DNA from: Ascochyta rabiei
Taxonomy: Eukaryota > Ascomycota > Dothideomycetes > Pleosporales > Didymellaceae
NCBI RefSeq assembly: GCF_004011695.2
Contig: NC_082406.1
Coordinates: 930,001 to 994,000 of the forward strand
Direction of reading: 5' to 3'
DNA: 64,000 nt
In this document: positions 19,364 to 28,529 of the stretch, in pieces
Position numbering within the stretch: the first letter of the stretch is position 1
Layout: every line of letters begins with the position of its first letter
Position numbers and translations under genes: made by a program
The notes under the pieces: model-generated
Database searches by the model: none
What the model saw: only the letters and a program-made list of their open reading frames with translations
What the model was told of the DNA's origin: nothing

Positions 19364-20951
19364 GGTGGTTTAGTTCTGCGCAAGCGCTGGCAGCGCTTAG
19401 CCTGCTCTCGTCTACGTCCGTTGTGCGCCCGCTGGTTAATGCGATTGACTTGGATCCTACACAGCCTGGTGCGTAGTCTTTGTAGCCTCTTTCAGCACCC
19501 ACAAAACACTAATGCGCAAGCGCAGACTCGATCAAGGATGCATCTTCAAAAATCGCATCAGAGCTGGTTGCGCAGTATGCCAGTAAAGATGCCAGTGGCG
19601 TGCACGTCCTCGGTGGCTACCCTGGAGTCCTGTACCCGCCGTATTACTGGTGGCAAGCTGGTGCTATGTTCGGAACGTTGTTGGACTACTGGCGTTATAC
19701 TGGTGATGATCAATACAACGACATGATGCACGAAGGTATGGTACATCAATTTGGAGAGCATCTGGATCTGGTAGGCTTCCGCGCAGAACTTGCTGAGAAT
19801 TCAATTCTGACACCGATAGATGCCAAGCAATCAGTCCAAGAACGAAGGAAACGACGACCAGGTCTTCTGGGCTTTCACTATGATGTCGGCCGCCGAGTAC
19901 AACTTCCCGGCGCCTCCTGATGATAAGCCAGGCTGGCTCGCAATGGTCCAGTCTGTGTTCAATCAGTTTGTCAAGCGCTACAACAAGGAGGTCGAAGATG
20001 GCAACTGCAAAGGTGGGATGCGCTGGCAGATTTATCCCTGGTTGAACGGGTGGACCTACAAGAACACTGCCTCAAACGGCGGACTTTTTCACCTGGGCGC
20101 CAGACTGGCCATGTTTACAAAGAATGAGACTTACGCCGAGTGGGCGGAAAAAGCGTACGACTGGATGAACGACAGTGCGCTGCTGGACGACGACGGCACT
20201 GTCAACGACGGCATGTCCATGACCACCAACCCACCCTGCAAAGAAGCAGACAAAACGCCCTGGACATACAACTACGGTATTATGATCGCCGGAGCTGCAT
20301 ATGTAAGTTCAACTCCTTTGCTCCTATCCCTTTTTCTATCACTAACAGGCCTAGATGTACAACCATACTAACGGAGCTGACAAATGGCGCAAAGCTCTGG
20401 AGCGTCACCTGAACAAAACAGACCAGTTCTTCCCCCAGTACTACAAAGGCATCATGACAGAAATCTGCGAGGCGAAAGAACTGTGCAACACCGACCAAGA
20501 GTCCTTCAAGGCTTACCTCTCCCGCTGGCTAGGCATATGCGTCCAGATGGCACCCTGGACCCACGATCTGATCATGCCGCGGCTGCAAACCTCGGCCAAA
20601 GCCGCAGCGCAAACCTGCGTCGCCCCCTCCCAGCACGGCGCAGGAAGCTACGCGTGCGGTATGCGCTGGTGGTGGAACGGACACGACGGATACCAGGGTG
20701 TAGGGCAGCAGATGACGGCTCTCAACCTCATCAGTGTGCTGAATGTCGATCGCGTCCCGCCGCCGTACAGTAGTAAGACTGGTGGTGAAAGCAAGGGTGA
20801 TTCGAGCTTGGGGACAGGGAGCGTAGACGATGATATTCCGCAACTGCATAAGACCCCCGTTACTACGGGGGATAAGGCAGGCGCAGCCATATTGACCATC
20901 TTGGTCGTCGCGTTTGTGTTAGGGGGTGGCTGGTGGTTATGCATTGAGTAA
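19360..20951 (+). CDS. GH76 mannan endo-1,6-alpha-mannosidase, DFG5/DCW1 type
   Basis: Four exons (19360-19468, 19526-19770, 19820-20302, 20355-20951) encode 477 residues; introns are 57, 49 and 52 bp. An N-terminal signal peptide precedes the catalytic domain: VLGGYPGVLYPPYYWWQAGAMFGTLLDYWRYTGD, then NEGNDDQVFWAFTMMSAAE with the adjacent Asp pair used by GH76, then GGMRWQIYPWLNGWTYKNTASNGGLFHLGARLA, then YACGMRWWWNGHDGYQGVGQQMTALN. The C-terminus is hydrophobic (AAILTILVVAFVLGGGWWLCI), fitting a GPI-attachment signal or single anchor. Dfg5/Dcw1 are thought to transfer GPI-linked wall proteins from the membrane onto wall glucan and are needed for wall assembly and polarised growth. The five-codon upstream frame overlapping the start is unusual. 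Confidence 0.93.
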
Positions 20952-21158
20952 AGTCGAGACAGATTTGGATACCCGCCATGAGACGGCGATACGAGAGAAC
21001 AACGGATTTTCGGCGTCTGTATATGGTTAACAAGGTCTGTATATACCAACAAATCCTATCTATACCCATCAAATCGCATTCACAGAACTCTAGCCTACAA
21101 ATTCGATTAGGCTTGCTCGGTTTAGGAATACCTCGGCTCAATGAGTTGCGGGGCATTA

Positions 21159-21160
21159 TA
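21159..21160. repeat. TA target-site duplication, left copy (outer element)
   Basis: TA directly abuts the left inverted repeat and is matched by TA at 25138-25139, the duplication expected of Tc1/mariner/pogo elements. Two bases alone are weak evidence; the paired inverted repeats support it. Confidence 0.6.
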
Positions 21161-21179
21161 CCGTGTCCGTGCGCGCAAC
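21161..21179 (+). repeat. Left terminal inverted repeat, outer element
   Basis: 19 bases that match the complement of 25119-25137 with no mismatch; similarity fades immediately inside. Confidence 0.9.
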
Positions 21180-21710
21180 AACTAGAGTCGCGCAATAACC
21201 AAATCATTACAACTACACTATACTTTAACGCGTTATAACTTAACAACTATAGCAGCTATTAATAAAGCGCTTATAGCAATTAATGTGCTAAAACTAGGCA
21301 AAAAACTTATATATTAGCATTTTGCTACTAGGTTTAGCGTTAACTGCGTAACTCTAGCTTAGAGACATAAGCACGTTTAGGACTCCTAGGAGACTAAGGA
21401 TATTAACTAGCAACGTTTAACACTATAACAGGAGATAGAGCTTATAAAGTATATAGAGTTACTTAGTACTTATTACTTACTACCTACTAGAGAGATAATC
21501 TAGAATTTCGCGTTGCTAGTAGCTCAAAATCTAGTTAGTAAGAGCTAAGTTACCTACTTTATTAACAAGTACTCTATCTATCTTATCTTGCGTTACTCTA
21601 CTAGGATAGATTAACTATATTATAATGCTAATTCCTATAATAAATATACACTCTACTTTAACCTACTACAGCACAAAATCTCTAAATACTCTATTAAGGG
21701 TTGCTACATA

Positions 21711-21767
21711 ACGTACTCTACAGGTAAGCGGATTAAACAGGTAAGCAGATTACTCTGCCAAGACTAC
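21711..21767 (+). repeat. Left inverted repeat of the inner element (RIP-altered arm)
   Basis: Aligned to the complement of 23517-23573 it differs at about eight positions. Every difference is C-to-T or G-to-A in this arm, so this arm carries more mutations than the right one. Confidence 0.85.
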
Positions 21768-21899
21768 ACTAAATTTCTACCCTATTATAGCTTACATTAG
21801 CCTACTTTAGCCTTATATACAGTAGTGTAGTATATAATATTATTTAGAAACATCTTCTACAGCCTTCTTATATATACGTAAGTTATGTCTAATATTATA

Positions 21900-23400
21900 G
21901 CACTTTGTACAGCGTCTTTAGGTTACTTCCCCTCCTTTAGCACGCACTTACTTCTTTGCCTTCTTACTATTACTACACGCCCTAAACTTAGTTAGAGTAG
22001 TTAATTAAAGGCCTTCCTTAGCTGTTAGGACTCCCTCCTGCTATAATTACTTTCTTTTATGCGATTTACGTCGCATAGCAGCCTTATTTGCTGCTTAAAG
22101 CCTAGTAATCTCCCTTTAAGCTAATACTAGCTTATACGCTACTATAGCTGCGCCTTTAGTAAGCTTTTTAAAGGCCTTAACTATTAAAGTTAGTAAGCTG
22201 CTTACATGCCTTTAAATCCTCTCTTAAACTAGTGTTAATTGCGACCCTAATTGCAGGGTAGTGCTTAGGGTTTAGGACTGCTAGGGCTTATCTTCTATAG
22301 TAGGTAGTAGTAGGGTACGTAGGCAGATATCAAGACCTATTATAACCTGTTCTAGGTTAAGAGGGACTATTCTAGCGCCTTAGAAGCCTTCTTAGATATT
22401 GCTAGAAGTAAATATCTCCTTATAGGCGTCTATAAAGTATAGTAGGAACTTAGTTTTAGTAATATAAGTAATATAGTTATATATAAGATTCTTAGCTTAG
22501 CGCCTATATACCTTCTTTAGAGGGGTAAAATAACCTACATCTAGTAGTTATAAGAGGTAAGATAAGTGTAGAGGCATACATAGTATAACAATCTTTACTT
22601 TCTTACAGTATTGTTAGAAGTTAAGGGAGTTATAGCTCTTGTAGCTGTTAATAAGGAGCAGCTAGTGCACTCTTTAGGTGCGCGTCTTTGTATAGGCATT
22701 AAAGTGCTTTAACTAGTCTAGACTAAGCTTGTTAGTAGTCTATCTGTTCTTAGAGACTCTAATAACCTAGTTATAGGTCAGATTGTCCTCTTTATACTAG
22801 GCAGAGAGGTAGTTACAGCCTTTAAAGATAATAAAGGGTAGAATAGCCTACCCTATACTATTAATGCCCTATATAACTGTTATCTACTCTTAATTACCCT
22901 ACTATACTACCTTTAGCTGTCCTTAACGCTCTAAGCCTATAATAACTACTCCTATTAATATCTAGCCTATTATAAAGCCTATCTTATTAAAGTTGTACAT
23001 GTTATTGTTCTAGATACTATACTTAGCTTTAATATTTGCTATAAGCCTAAACTAGCCCCTAATAATCTCTAGATTCTTATAGAGGGCTCTCTTGTAGTTA
23101 TACTTACAATTAAACCTTACTTTAAGGTTAGGGCGGCGCTTAATAAACGTGTTAGGCTAGTTTATGCTAACATAGCCTATATTACGCTTAGCATATAAAG
23201 AATTAGCTATATTAGCTATAGTAGCTAGCTAAGGGGTAAATCCTTGTATATCTAGCTTAAGGATATACTTAGCAATTACGTCCTCCTTAGTCTAGTCTAT
23301 AATCTGTTAAACTAGCGTATAATTAGCTTGTGTAGGTTGTTCTGTATATTAAGCGTGTAGTGTGCTGTAAGGCGTGTTATATATAGCTGCAGCGCGTTAT
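21900..23400 (-). pseudogene. Transposase relic of the inner element (DDE, Fot1/pogo type)
   Basis: Limits are approximate. On the minus strand the frame contains YNFNKIGF (family form YNxDExGF; the Asp codon at 22988-22986 reads AAT), then FKGCNYLSA and YKEDNLTYN, then LKHFNAYTKTRT, LLLINSYKSYNSLNF (family form LLIxDGHxSH; the Asp codon at 22649-22647 reads AAC), and VILCMPLHLSYLL-LLDVGYFTPLKK. The two catalytic positions are in the same frame 336 bases apart, with only stop codons between. Both catalytic Asp codons have become Asn by G-to-A, and many TAG/TAA stops are present, so no protein can be made. Confidence 0.85.
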
Positions 23401-23516
23401 ACAGTAAGTATTACGTCTTATTTAATTGCCTAGAGCGCAAGCTGTATTGTAGCTTCTCTTAAGGGCGTAGATTAATGTTGTTGTTAAGGCATTGCGTGGT
23501 AAGGTGGAGGTTTGGT

Positions 23517-23573
23517 GTGGTCTTGGCAGAGTGATCCGCTCACCCGTTTGATCCGCTTACCTGTGGAGTACGT
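23517..23573 (-). repeat. Right inverted repeat of the inner element
   Basis: The less mutated arm; it lies in a short GC-richer patch (about 23490-23570) inside otherwise AT-rich sequence. It pairs with 21711-21767. Confidence 0.85.
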
Positions 23574-25118
23574 TATATAATATAAATAAGAAGGGCTTTA
23601 TAATTAGTATTATAGGTAGAATAAAACATATGTTTAGTAAGTATATATAGATAAAGGGAGAGATTAAAGCATCTATCTAGGATAGTAACTAAGCTTAGCA
23701 GACGCTTATAGCGTGTGTGTGTAGTAATAGAACAGTACTACTACTAGGCATTATCTATAAGTTAGCTAACGCTAGCATTAAATTAGACTAGGTAGCTAAA
23801 ATTAAGCTAGAAAAACACTCTGTAATAGTTATATTATCTTTCTTAGGGTAGACAAATAGGGATATAGGCCTTACCTAGCTTAAGCAGGTATTTAATTACT
23901 ACACTAAGGAGAAAGCACAAAGAAAGTAGAGGCTTTTAATACTAGATAGCTACAGATCCTACGTAACAATAGACTTTATTAAGTACTATAATAACTACAA
24001 GATCCTCCTAGCTGTTCTTCCCCCTTACTTAACCTAAACGCTCTAGCTGCTTAATATAGTACTGTTTAAGCCTCTATTAATAGTATACTTAAAAGCAGTT
24101 ATAATATATATCTATAAGGCTTAAAATAACACACCTATTACTAGAGTAGACTTCTTCTGCCTATTCTAGCCAGCGTAGATGTGTAGCTTTACTAAAAAGC
24201 TAATACTTAAGTTCTTTAAGGTAATAGGTATCTATCTACTTAATCCTAACATTATCCTCTACTACTTTGTTAAAACACTAGAGAGCTTAGATTTAGATAG
24301 GTCCTTATTGTCTATTTATAGCAATAAGGATTAGCTTAAAATAGAGATGTTGTTATAGCATGTAGTTAAAAACTAGAGTAAGAGTAACATTAAAAAGATA
24401 AGACAATTAATCTACTATATTTTAGTTAAAACCTTACTCCTCTAGTATAAGATAGATAGCCTTAAAAAGACTCTAAAGACACAGAAGAAGTACAAAAAGA
24501 AGAGTAAAACCTTAGACTTACAGTAACAGCAGGAGTACTATAGTAGTGCAGTGTTCTAGTTACCTAGAAAGGTTAACAAAGCACGCTTCTGTAAGCAAGT
24601 TAGACAACGTAAGAAGAAGGAGGAGAGGCTTAGAAAAGCTACTAGTAAGGAAGTAGCAGCTGCTAAGAAGCTAGTTAAGGAGAAGGAGAAGGAGGAGAGG
24701 CGTGTGGCATAAGAGGCAGCTAAGGTAGTACGTAAGAAGGAGAAGGCTAATACAGTAAATTAGAAGGCTAAACAGAAGGCTAAAAAGTAGTATTAATAAT
24801 AAGAGCTTAATGCTGTAAAAGCTATATAATTACTTTAAAAGGGTAAGAAGAAAGCTTTATAAGTAACCTAGCTAAAAAAGCGTTAAAAACGTGGTCCTAG
24901 GGATAATGTTGGTGGTTGTAGTCCCCCATCGCCGTCCCTAGCTCCCCCACTCAAAACCACATTACGTGGCCGCAACGTTAAGTTACCAGCCAAATTTAAA
25001 TAGTATATCTTTTTTGCAAGTAATTAATTAGTACTACACTATAAAATTATAAAATAATAGCTGTTGTAGGTGGCTCTATAGCCTTATCTAATTTTGAGCG
25101 TTGAGGTGGTTTTCGGTC

Positions 25119-26904: not shown

Positions 26905-28529
26905 TCACGATTGGACATCTGGGACCGGTCGGAGCACCAAAGTCTTCCACTTCTGCACAAAGCCCCTTTCAGAGACAGGAATCTTCTCTTGTGTATATGC
27001 GCCCTCAGTGCCCTCAGTAGCTGTGTCTGGTTCCTTCACTGTTTTAGGATTCTCAGAAAAATCACTTGGAACTTGGGGTGCGTGGCAAGCTTCGACATCG
27101 ACGACGGTCTCCGTTGATTCGGATTTGGGAAGGTTCTTCGAGGGATGCTCAGCAACGTATTCATCGTAAGTCTTTCCAGCTTTCTTTGCTTCTTGGCGAA
27201 TGTGTCGTACGCGCCAGAGCCAGATGGCTTGAGATGCGAAGATGCCCGTTTCAAGCAGCATACTATTAACGTCAGTAATAATCCACCAGTGACAAGAGAG
27301 CCACGTACCAAGCAATGTACAAGCTGCCACCGAGGGCATCAAACCACTGCTGTGCAACTAAACAAAATTAGTGGAAACTGATAGTATCTGGGGCGAGCAG
27401 ACTCACTGAGAGCCATCAGAGAGAAGAACGCTCCAGCATAGTCGATGAGCAGAAACCAAAAGTCTGTTGCAGTCAGCAGAAGATCGCTCACTGCACTAAC
27501 ATGCTACCCACCGATGCCAATAACTCTGCCGCTGCGTTTTGCGAGCTCGAAGTACGGTGGTATCAACCCAGCGATCTGGATGAGCGTAGCTGAAATCGCC
27601 ATAAGCATCATTGGCCACTTGACACCGCGATCATAAGGACCCTGGGCGTCGCAGATTAGCTATACAAGTAGACCAACGTCTCATCAATTACTCACCTGAA
27701 GAGCGAAGATCAGAATCACCTCCATGACTGCAAAGCTTGTCGCAAGAAGAATGGTAGCCACGGTTGCAGTCCAGGTTTTCCACTTGCTATTGATGCTTAA
27801 CAGCTGAACAGAAATCTGGCATTCGAACTTACTTGTGGTAGTAGAGCGTCTGCCCCCAGGAGATGAGTGTGAGACCAGCAAATGCTTGAGGCTGGAACTG
27901 AAGAGCAAAGCTGAAGTTCTGCTTGAGATTAGCCGCAAGTCGAACATGGTGGTGGATGTTTGGTACCTGTACAATAGCGTAAACACCAAATGGCACGCCG
28001 CCTATCGAAGTCAGTATGAAGCTGTGATGGCGGCACCAGTGACTTGCATATCGACCAGAGAATCAGCATCGATCCGGGTAAGCCTTCGGTGCTCTTCCTC
28101 TGGTAGTTGTGCCATATTCTGGACTTGTTAAAGGTGCTTTGTCAAACACTTGGTGCGACGTACTGTGGAATAATCTGTTGAGGTTAGTAAAGATGACAAG
28201 GCTTATGCGTGTGAGCTCATCTTACCTGAACACACCAGCAGCTGGGTTCGAAGCATTGTTAGTGAAGGAGTTCTCGGGCCATTGAGAGCGATACATACAC
28301 TGCAGTGTTGTTAGCAAATGAGAGACAAACATCATTGAGCGACTTACCAGTTCCGATCGTCTATGTTTGGCAGATACACATTAGTACAGCCACGCGTCTC
28401 GCTGTCGTCGATAAGGTCATGACTTACACCAAGCACATCTGCTGCCTACAGAAAGGTCAGCCCAGGCGAATTGGATTGTAGAACACTTGAGGCACTCACG
28501 GGCGGTATCGACACTTGTGGCCTGTCCAT
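26905..28529 (-). CDS. PQ-loop repeat seven-helix membrane protein with 14 exons
   Basis: I assemble 14 exons: 28529-28500, 28445-28428, 28360-28348, 28299 (one base), 28241-28226, 28174-28164, 28118-28048, 28001-27967, 27918-27833, 27786-27696, 27641-27512, 27463-27407, 27357-27309, 27262-26905; 966 bases, 321 residues. Thirteen introns of 45-67 bp interrupt it. The first PQ loop is VLGTIGTVCWCVQIIPQIW and the second lies at TLIQIAGLIPPYFELAKRSG; other landmarks are STEGLPGSMLILW, CGVPFGVYAIVQNF, QPQAFAGLTLISWGQTLYY and IDFWFLLIDYAGAFFSLMAL. The C-terminal 100 residues are cytosolic and acidic. Relatives move cationic amino acids or cystine at lysosome/vacuole membranes, but this fungal subgroup is uncharacterised. 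Two peculiarities: exon 4 is the single T at 28299, and the intron 28047-28002 has a GC donor (GCAAGT). Exon 9 could alternatively start three bases earlier. Confidence 0.85.
28002..28047 (-). other. GC-AG intron in the PQ-loop gene
   Basis: The frame joins LWSI-C-GVPFGVY only if the intron begins GCAAGT after ...ATA T and ends at ATAG. A GT donor two codons later (GTCACT) breaks the frame. GC-AG introns are a known minor class, usually with a strong AAGT following, as here. Confidence 0.8.
28299..28299 (-). other. Single-nucleotide micro-exon (T)
   Basis: Two complete introns abut around this base: 28347-28300 (GTAAGT ... GCTAAC ... CTGCAG) and 28298-28242 (GTATGT ... CACTAAC ... CCCAG). 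Including the T completes a Val codon (G-T-C) and yields GTIGTVCWCVQIIPQ, the expected first PQ-loop helix. Leaving it out breaks the frame. Confidence 0.75.

Follow-up and report, generated by a model that had tools for sequence, protein, structure and literature searches.

A putative one-nucleotide exon in a PQ-loop membrane protein gene of Ascochyta rabiei

Introduction

Exons of a single nucleotide have been described in several systems, summarized here from the cited sections of each paper. A 1-nt exon is known from the plant gene APC11 (PMC4674806), and RNA-seq and RT-PCR have traced 1-nt exons of APC11 and VPS55 through the land plants (PMC8831610). A further case is listed for placozoan mitochondria (PMC5436844). 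In Fusarium, the gene CYP621A carries a 1-nt exon that was called the first for a fungal gene (PMC12940212).

We followed up a sequence-only reading of a 64,000-nt stretch (the window) from the genome of Ascochyta rabiei, a member of the Didymellaceae in the Pleosporales; this reading had proposed a 1-nt exon in a PQ-loop gene and had named APC11 as the precedent. APC11 is indeed such a case, but the list was incomplete, as VPS55 (PMC8831610) and CYP621A (PMC12940212) are further ones. As in the part of the CYP621A study consulted here (PMC12940212), the candidate belongs to an ascomycete nuclear gene with short introns, and the base lies mid-codon in a conserved motif.

Results

The PQ-loop gene and its annotation

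The gene occupies positions 26905–28529 of the window on the minus strand. Under the 1-nt-exon model it has 14 exons and 13 introns of 45–67 nt each and encodes 321 amino acids. The predicted protein matches the PQ-loop profile (Pfam PF04193) over residues 12–70 with 74.2 bits, above the curated cut-off of 22, which places it in the PQ-loop family. The nearest solved chains by sequence were cystinosins, with weak matches (E 0.0026 and 0.49). Intron 7 (28002–28047) is a GC-AG intron (GCAAGT ... CGATAG). The host genome measures 40.9 Mb in 23 contigs; within the window, positions 20001–24000 have a GC content of 0.40, compared with 0.47–0.59 in the remaining 4-kb blocks.

The annotated A. rabiei protein (EKO05_0001242, P0001 in our set) was 100% identical to the 321-aa query over 86% of its length. 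It begins at Met47 and lacks exons 1–6 and most of exon 7. Its PQ-loop score is 12 bits, which fails the Pfam cut-off of 22, whereas the 1-nt-exon model (74 bits) passes. In the consulted part of a 2024 paper, EKO05 tags are used with the ArME14 reference GCA_004011695.2 (PMC11893274). The A. rabiei annotation, as described in the cited section of PMC7341154, used RNA-seq and MACE hints, and the 1-nt exon is absent from its model.

A single base between two complete introns

On the minus strand, intron 2 (28361–28427, 67 nt, donor GTAAGT) is followed by exon 3 (28348–28360, 13 nt, ACGATCGGAACTG) and intron 3 (28300–28347, 48 nt), the latter with donor GTAAGT, branch motif TGCTAAC and acceptor CTGCAG. 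Exon 4 is the single T at position 28299. Intron 4 (28242–28298, 57 nt) begins directly after it with GTATGT, has the branch motif CACTAAC and ends in CCCAG, and leads to exon 5 (28226–28241, 16 nt, CTGCTGGTGTGTTCAG) and, further on, exon 6 (28164–28174, 11 nt). The order is thus GGAACTG / GTAAGT...GCTAAC...CTGCAG / T / GTATGT...CACTAAC...CCCAG / CTGCTGG, with one base between a canonical acceptor and a canonical donor and a complete intron on each side. The sequence-only reading had described the same two abutting introns, and every letter it gave was found where it had placed it. T28299 is the sole AG-N-GT/GC position within 28347–28242.

With T28299 kept, the exons encode MDRPQVSIPPAADVLGTIGTVCWCVQIIPQIW... 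in the 321-aa frame, the T being the middle base of codon 21 (GTC, Val). Omission of T28299 brings a stop at codon 48, and seven exon junctions follow this stop. The frame and the conserved protein sequence both require the base, in agreement with the earlier claim that it supplies the Val codon and the conserved first PQ-loop helix and that the frame breaks without it. We regard T28299 as most probably a real, coding, one-nucleotide exon (probability of roughly 0.9), because a complete short intron flanks it on either side and because its inclusion is the only canonical way to encode that helix. A further reason is that probable mRNAs of relatives show a codon with a central T, and many genome-based models show a peptide with one T dropped.

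A divergent PQ-loop paralog in the A. rabiei genome seems to have a 61-nt phase-0 GT-AG intron directly before the matching Val codon (locus L010, 1331–1391, minus strand); this intron does not decide the origin of the abutting pair.

Signal strength and chance expectation

Splice sites were scored with a small matrix trained on the 11 other introns of the gene, by which the donor of intron 3 reached 9.6 bits and that of intron 4 2.8 bits, the lowest in the gene (others 5.5–10.9). The acceptors of introns 3 and 4 were likewise the lowest (1.1 and 1.5 bits; others 2.5–9.7). Their branch motifs and the corresponding distances (12 and 18 nt) looked normal. Joined together, intron 3, the T and intron 4 measure 106 nt, compared with 45–67 nt for the 11 other introns.

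We estimated how often such a pair arises by chance on both strands of 264 kb, made up of the window and 20 further stretches of 10 kb. No other frame-compatible pair of complete introns with a one-base spacing was present besides that around T28299, and the Markov mean over six resamplings was 0.17. Each other spacing from -1 to 12 likewise gave 0 or 1 pair (8 pairs at 14 spacings in the 264 kb), and the abutting pair alone is therefore not beyond chance; its place and frame inside a conserved codon carry the weight.

Enumeration of splice paths

A search without a fixed exon length covered canonical paths starting at the ATG and running through exon 7 (introns of 38–200 nt with GT or GCAA donors and AG acceptors, at most seven of them) and yielded 471,687 open paths and 237,248 distinct in-frame products. 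The helix GTIGT[VI]CWC was present in 245 products, all 245 of which use the 1-nt exon; neither GTIGT[VI]CWC nor GTIGT.CWC was produced without it among the 237,248 in-frame canonical products. When scored against the RNA-type relative P0002, the 1-nt-exon product came first (286), while the best product without this exon reached 268 and the one retaining intron 3 reached 260.

A narrower search, to which rivals of other lengths were invisible as the total exon length was fixed at 160 nt, found seven paths within 8 mismatches of P0002. The 1-nt exon is part of the two closest paths, which have 2 and 4 mismatches and differ from each other at intron 1 only; the best paths without it had 8 mismatches. 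The interval 28360–28226 yielded 24 distinct products by one-step splicing and 24 by two-step (nested) splicing. The peptide TIGTVCWCVQ arose there by only two routes, removing either the upstream or the downstream intron first, and T28299 was kept in both.

Proteins of relatives

Three protein searches gave 379, 405 and 638 hits, and the best 120 of each made up a set of 184 proteins. From these best rows we chose 60 NCBI orthologs by organism name. Outside this set remained Cryomyces P0081 (intact), Patellaria P0089 and Trichodelitschia P0177 (both altered), and the second-copy rows P0116, P0129, P0174 and P0175 (intact). The position of the T in relatives was deduced by protein comparison.

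Among the 60 NCBI orthologs, to which some genera contribute more than one strain or species so that counts are not independent, 55 lacked the motif in frame, one had V or I in place (Periconia P0034) and four had G or R in frame. CWCVQ was still present behind a changed lead in a few of the 55 (P0010, P0014, P0029). In the four rows with in-frame Gly or Arg instead of Val/Ile (P0008, P0030, P0032, P0039), either the 1-nt exon has really been lost or the model boundary is one base off. The 76 NCBI rows outside the 60, the seven left-out Dothideomycete rows included, had V or I in 65 cases, with no insert. Broken models alone prove little, since the tiny neighbouring exons (13, 16 and 11 nt) also trouble gene finders; exact peptides do prove something.

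The ortholog clade also held 36 contig rows from sources other than NCBI. The motif was found in 13 of them (Val in 11, Ile in two, no insert) and was absent from 23. The 13 are probably RNA-derived, as their contigs are small (longest members 1.3–5.1 kb) and their frames unbroken for a gene with 13 introns. Missing N-termini, seen in 23 of the 36 rows, may mean that incomplete or other splicing is common. The JGI-sourced rows P0021 and P0002 do not differ in the first 200 residues of P0021, which begins at VPFGV on a 1.3-kb contig; P0021 perhaps represents incompletely or differently spliced RNA from the same fungus as P0002. The proteins of relatives lend support to the 1-nt exon that the sequence-only reading had proposed, and the path enumeration agrees with it that no other canonical solution keeps the helix.

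Peptide footprints of a probably missed base

The anchor GTxGT was kept in 29 of the 60 NCBI rows. In the T-dropped test, the six residues after the anchor had to be readable as [VI]-x-W-C-x-Q with a T dropped after the first base. This reading fitted 12 of the 29 anchored rows (control away from the site: 1 of 39,557 windows), each of which shows only two exon ends one base short. Examples are A. lentis (AAGVFR), Byssothecium (NAGVFK) and Macrophomina (DAGVYR). The same signature stood further along in three of the 31 anchorless rows (P0016, P0040, P0078). In the A. lentis model, the T-dropped frame is followed by skipping of the next large exon, so that 1 + 71 = 72 nt restores the frame.

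Five rows fitted T followed by GTAYG(T/C), reading into the second donor (Boeremia VYV, Lentithecium MYV, Massarina MYV, Sporormia VYV, Pyrenophora VYA; control 12 of 39,557), and three appeared to read through into donor 1, which is weak evidence given a control of 515 of 39,557; such read-through rows cannot show that both introns are there. Four of the 29 anchored rows fitted none of the footprint classes. Residues of exons 3–5 (10 in number) were missing from P0012 and P0022. The Lasiodiplodia model P0153 had 17 residues between GTIGT and CWC, and the arrangement in Lasiodiplodia may be a different one.

Substituting A, C or G for the T cannot serve as a control, since the middle base of Val and Ile codons is T anyway. 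An earlier control (46, 21 and 13 of 54,277 windows for five, six and seven residues) contained the sites themselves and was superseded by that with 39,557 windows.

Distribution and possible age

A quick maximum-likelihood tree was built from residues 55–235 of 64 rows (63 of the 184 proteins and the protein of the window). Altered genome models adjoined intact RNA-type rows in five places: Epicoccum (support 89), Bipolaris (96), Lentithecium (93), Bimuria/Kalmusia/Paraphaeosphaeria (99) and Macrophomina (82). The closest intact/altered pair was P0002 and Epicoccum nigrum, with 98.4% identity over 186 residues; no pair came from one strain. The first codon base agreed in the readable pairs, being A in Lentithecium and its RNA-type sister with Ile, and G in the pairs with Val. 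P0018, labelled Curvularia kusanoi, grouped with Didymellaceae (support 98) and not with other Pleosporaceae, and its label may be off.

Macrophomina, where the T-dropped signature is present, belongs to Botryosphaeriales. Of eight testable altered rows outside the 60, one passed the T-dropped test, namely Sarea resinae P0178 (TVGVSR) of the Sareomycetes. Judged from these peptides, the 1-nt exon may predate Dothideomycetes. A broader proposal, which we put forward tentatively and consider doubtful, is that the exon arose before Dothideomycetes and Sareomycetes split, that obligate two-step splicing has preserved it in Pleosporales and Botryosphaeriales, and that it was missed in nearly all genome annotations of these fungi and could be used as a built-in checkpoint. 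The checkpoint idea derives from the two outcomes of incomplete processing: an mRNA without the T would stop at codon 48, and retention of intron 3 alone would preserve the frame and add 16 residues.

Alternative explanations

The 48 nt of intron 3 are a multiple of three and free of stops, and intron 4 is canonical, so that intron 3 could be coding and the 57-nt intron 4 alone removed, with 16 extra residues (GKSLNDVCLSFANNTA) placed before VCWC. A similar-looking stretch of 17 residues is present in Lasiodiplodia P0153. This would split the helix, however, and inserts were absent from all 13 non-NCBI clade rows with the motif and from 65 of 76 other NCBI rows; the donor of intron 3 is also among the better ones of the gene (9.6 bits). 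We hold this to be very unlikely. A 102-nt intron (28343–28242) with the donor GTCGCT would give GTIGTGNCWC, with Gly-Asn for Val and one extra residue. Its product is in frame and the best of those without the 1-nt exon (268 vs 286), and the Pleomassaria model P0029 (GTIGTGICWC) may have been built this way, but the weak donor is off consensus, its use would mean passing over a perfect GTAAGT four bases upstream, and the extra residue occurs in no motif-bearing non-NCBI row; we find it extremely unlikely. Removal of all 106 nt (28347–28242) as one intron would keep the frame if exon 2 ended early at the GTGTAA donor (28429), and the PQ-loop would still be detected. The price would be a change of LGTIGTV to LDDRNC and a fall of the Pfam score from 74.1 to 61.7 bits, and GT[IL]GT is kept in the 13 motif-bearing RNA-type rows, which leaves a single intron with a vanishingly small chance. 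The sequence-only reading had rightly stated that the donor at 28429 keeps the frame and loses the helix; it overlooked two others, since the 102-nt intron and the retention of intron 3 as 16 residues keep the frame too.

Two abutting short introns in an ascomycete also recall stwintrons, which are known there according to the cited section of PMC5639578; the upstream intron would then split the downstream donor, with no exon between them. Of the 24 distinct two-step products of 28360–28226, however, the one giving TIGTVCWCVQ keeps T28299 as an exon, and the earlier exclusion of a stwintron is upheld in that no nested order of canonical sites gives the helix otherwise. We see next to no chance for this reading, and just as little for an assembly error or decayed gene with one base missing or extra in the DNA. 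A sequencing slip would also appear as a one-base phase mismatch, but the same mismatch is seen in 12 other annotated genomes or strains, and the remainder of the gene is open and conserved. In addition, the ArME14 PacBio assembly was Illumina-corrected, according to the consulted part of PMC7341154, and that of the window is apparently a later form. As for the annotated start, the main product might begin at Met47 and the N-terminus with the 1-nt exon be a minor or abandoned form. P0001, three other NCBI rows and 12 non-NCBI rows do begin at or beside that Met; against this, the PQ-loop would be lost (12 bits, cut-off 22), and 13 relatives have the full N-terminus. To this we give hardly any credence.

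Discussion

Proposed splicing of the one-nucleotide exon

For the 1-nt exon, factors bound to CTGCAG and to GTATGT would overlap, and the exon could not hold both sets at once. Because it is too small for 3' and 5' splice-site factors together, introns 3 and 4 would each be recognised alone (intron definition) and removed one after the other. On paper, both orders give the same mRNA. Intron 3 would usually leave first, given its stronger donor (9.6 vs 2.8 bits). Donor strength does not settle the order, since in a potato invertase microexon, cited by Guo and Liu, the second intron is removed first (cited section of PMC4674806). For APC11, the same section proposes a model combining intron definition with recursive splicing (PMC4674806). 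An mRNA without T28299, with its stop at codon 48 and seven junctions downstream, would be a likely substrate for decay. Retained intron 3, with its 16 extra residues, was not seen in any of the 13 non-NCBI rows of the clade that carry the motif.

Significance

If confirmed, the arrangement of 48 + 1 + 57 nt would be a small, naturally occurring system for testing how the spliceosome deals with an exon too small for both factor sets, and in which order the introns leave. The faulty annotations of many relatives at this site suggest that the 1-nt exon is old and went unnoticed by gene finders: 55 of the 60 annotated orthologs examined look changed at the first membrane helix. A peptide test with one base dropped could find other 1-nt exons without RNA data.

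Comparison with known systems

The comparisons below refer to the cited sections of each paper. Like the Ascomycota stwintrons (PMC5639578), the PQ-loop gene has two touching U2 introns that would be removed consecutively. A stwintron has its internal intron inserted within a splice signal of the external intron (PMC5639578), whereas here one coding base stands between complete introns. Term searches of the stwintron papers PMC9024468 and PMC6616335 gave no hits. Recursive ratchet points (PMC8605326) are similar in the juxtaposition of acceptor and donor and in stepwise removal, but they occur in long introns and no base is retained at them, whereas here one base is kept between introns of about 50 nt. 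A ratchet point was rejected for this locus, as it requires zero exon bases and the T lies between acceptor and donor.

The plant exons of APC11 and VPS55 (PMC4674806, PMC8831610) are likewise constitutive or conserved and missed by annotation. Missing the VPS55 exon drops N-terminal residues and alters the first membrane helix (PMC8831610), and the same holds for the PQ-loop gene. In Arabidopsis APC11, the A equivalent to our T lies within an interval of 422 nt (PMC4674806), compared with 106 nt here. The plant exons were tested by reporters or by RT-PCR and RNA-seq (PMC4674806, PMC8831610), whereas the PQ-loop exon is predicted from sequence.

We found no 1-nt exon reported for this gene in the open-licence PMC literature. 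As far as the literature was searched, this would, if confirmed, be the second fungal gene with such an exon. As in CYP621A (PMC12940212), a phase 1 / phase 2 mismatch accompanies wrong annotations. The two cases differ in the gene, the lineage and the base (G in CYP621A, T here). Conservation of the CYP621A exon was traced within Fusarium by DNA alignment and SRA reads (PMC12940212), whereas that of the PQ-loop exon appears to extend across orders, as deduced from proteins. What this case adds is a new gene, lineage and base, together with apparently broad conservation and misannotation.
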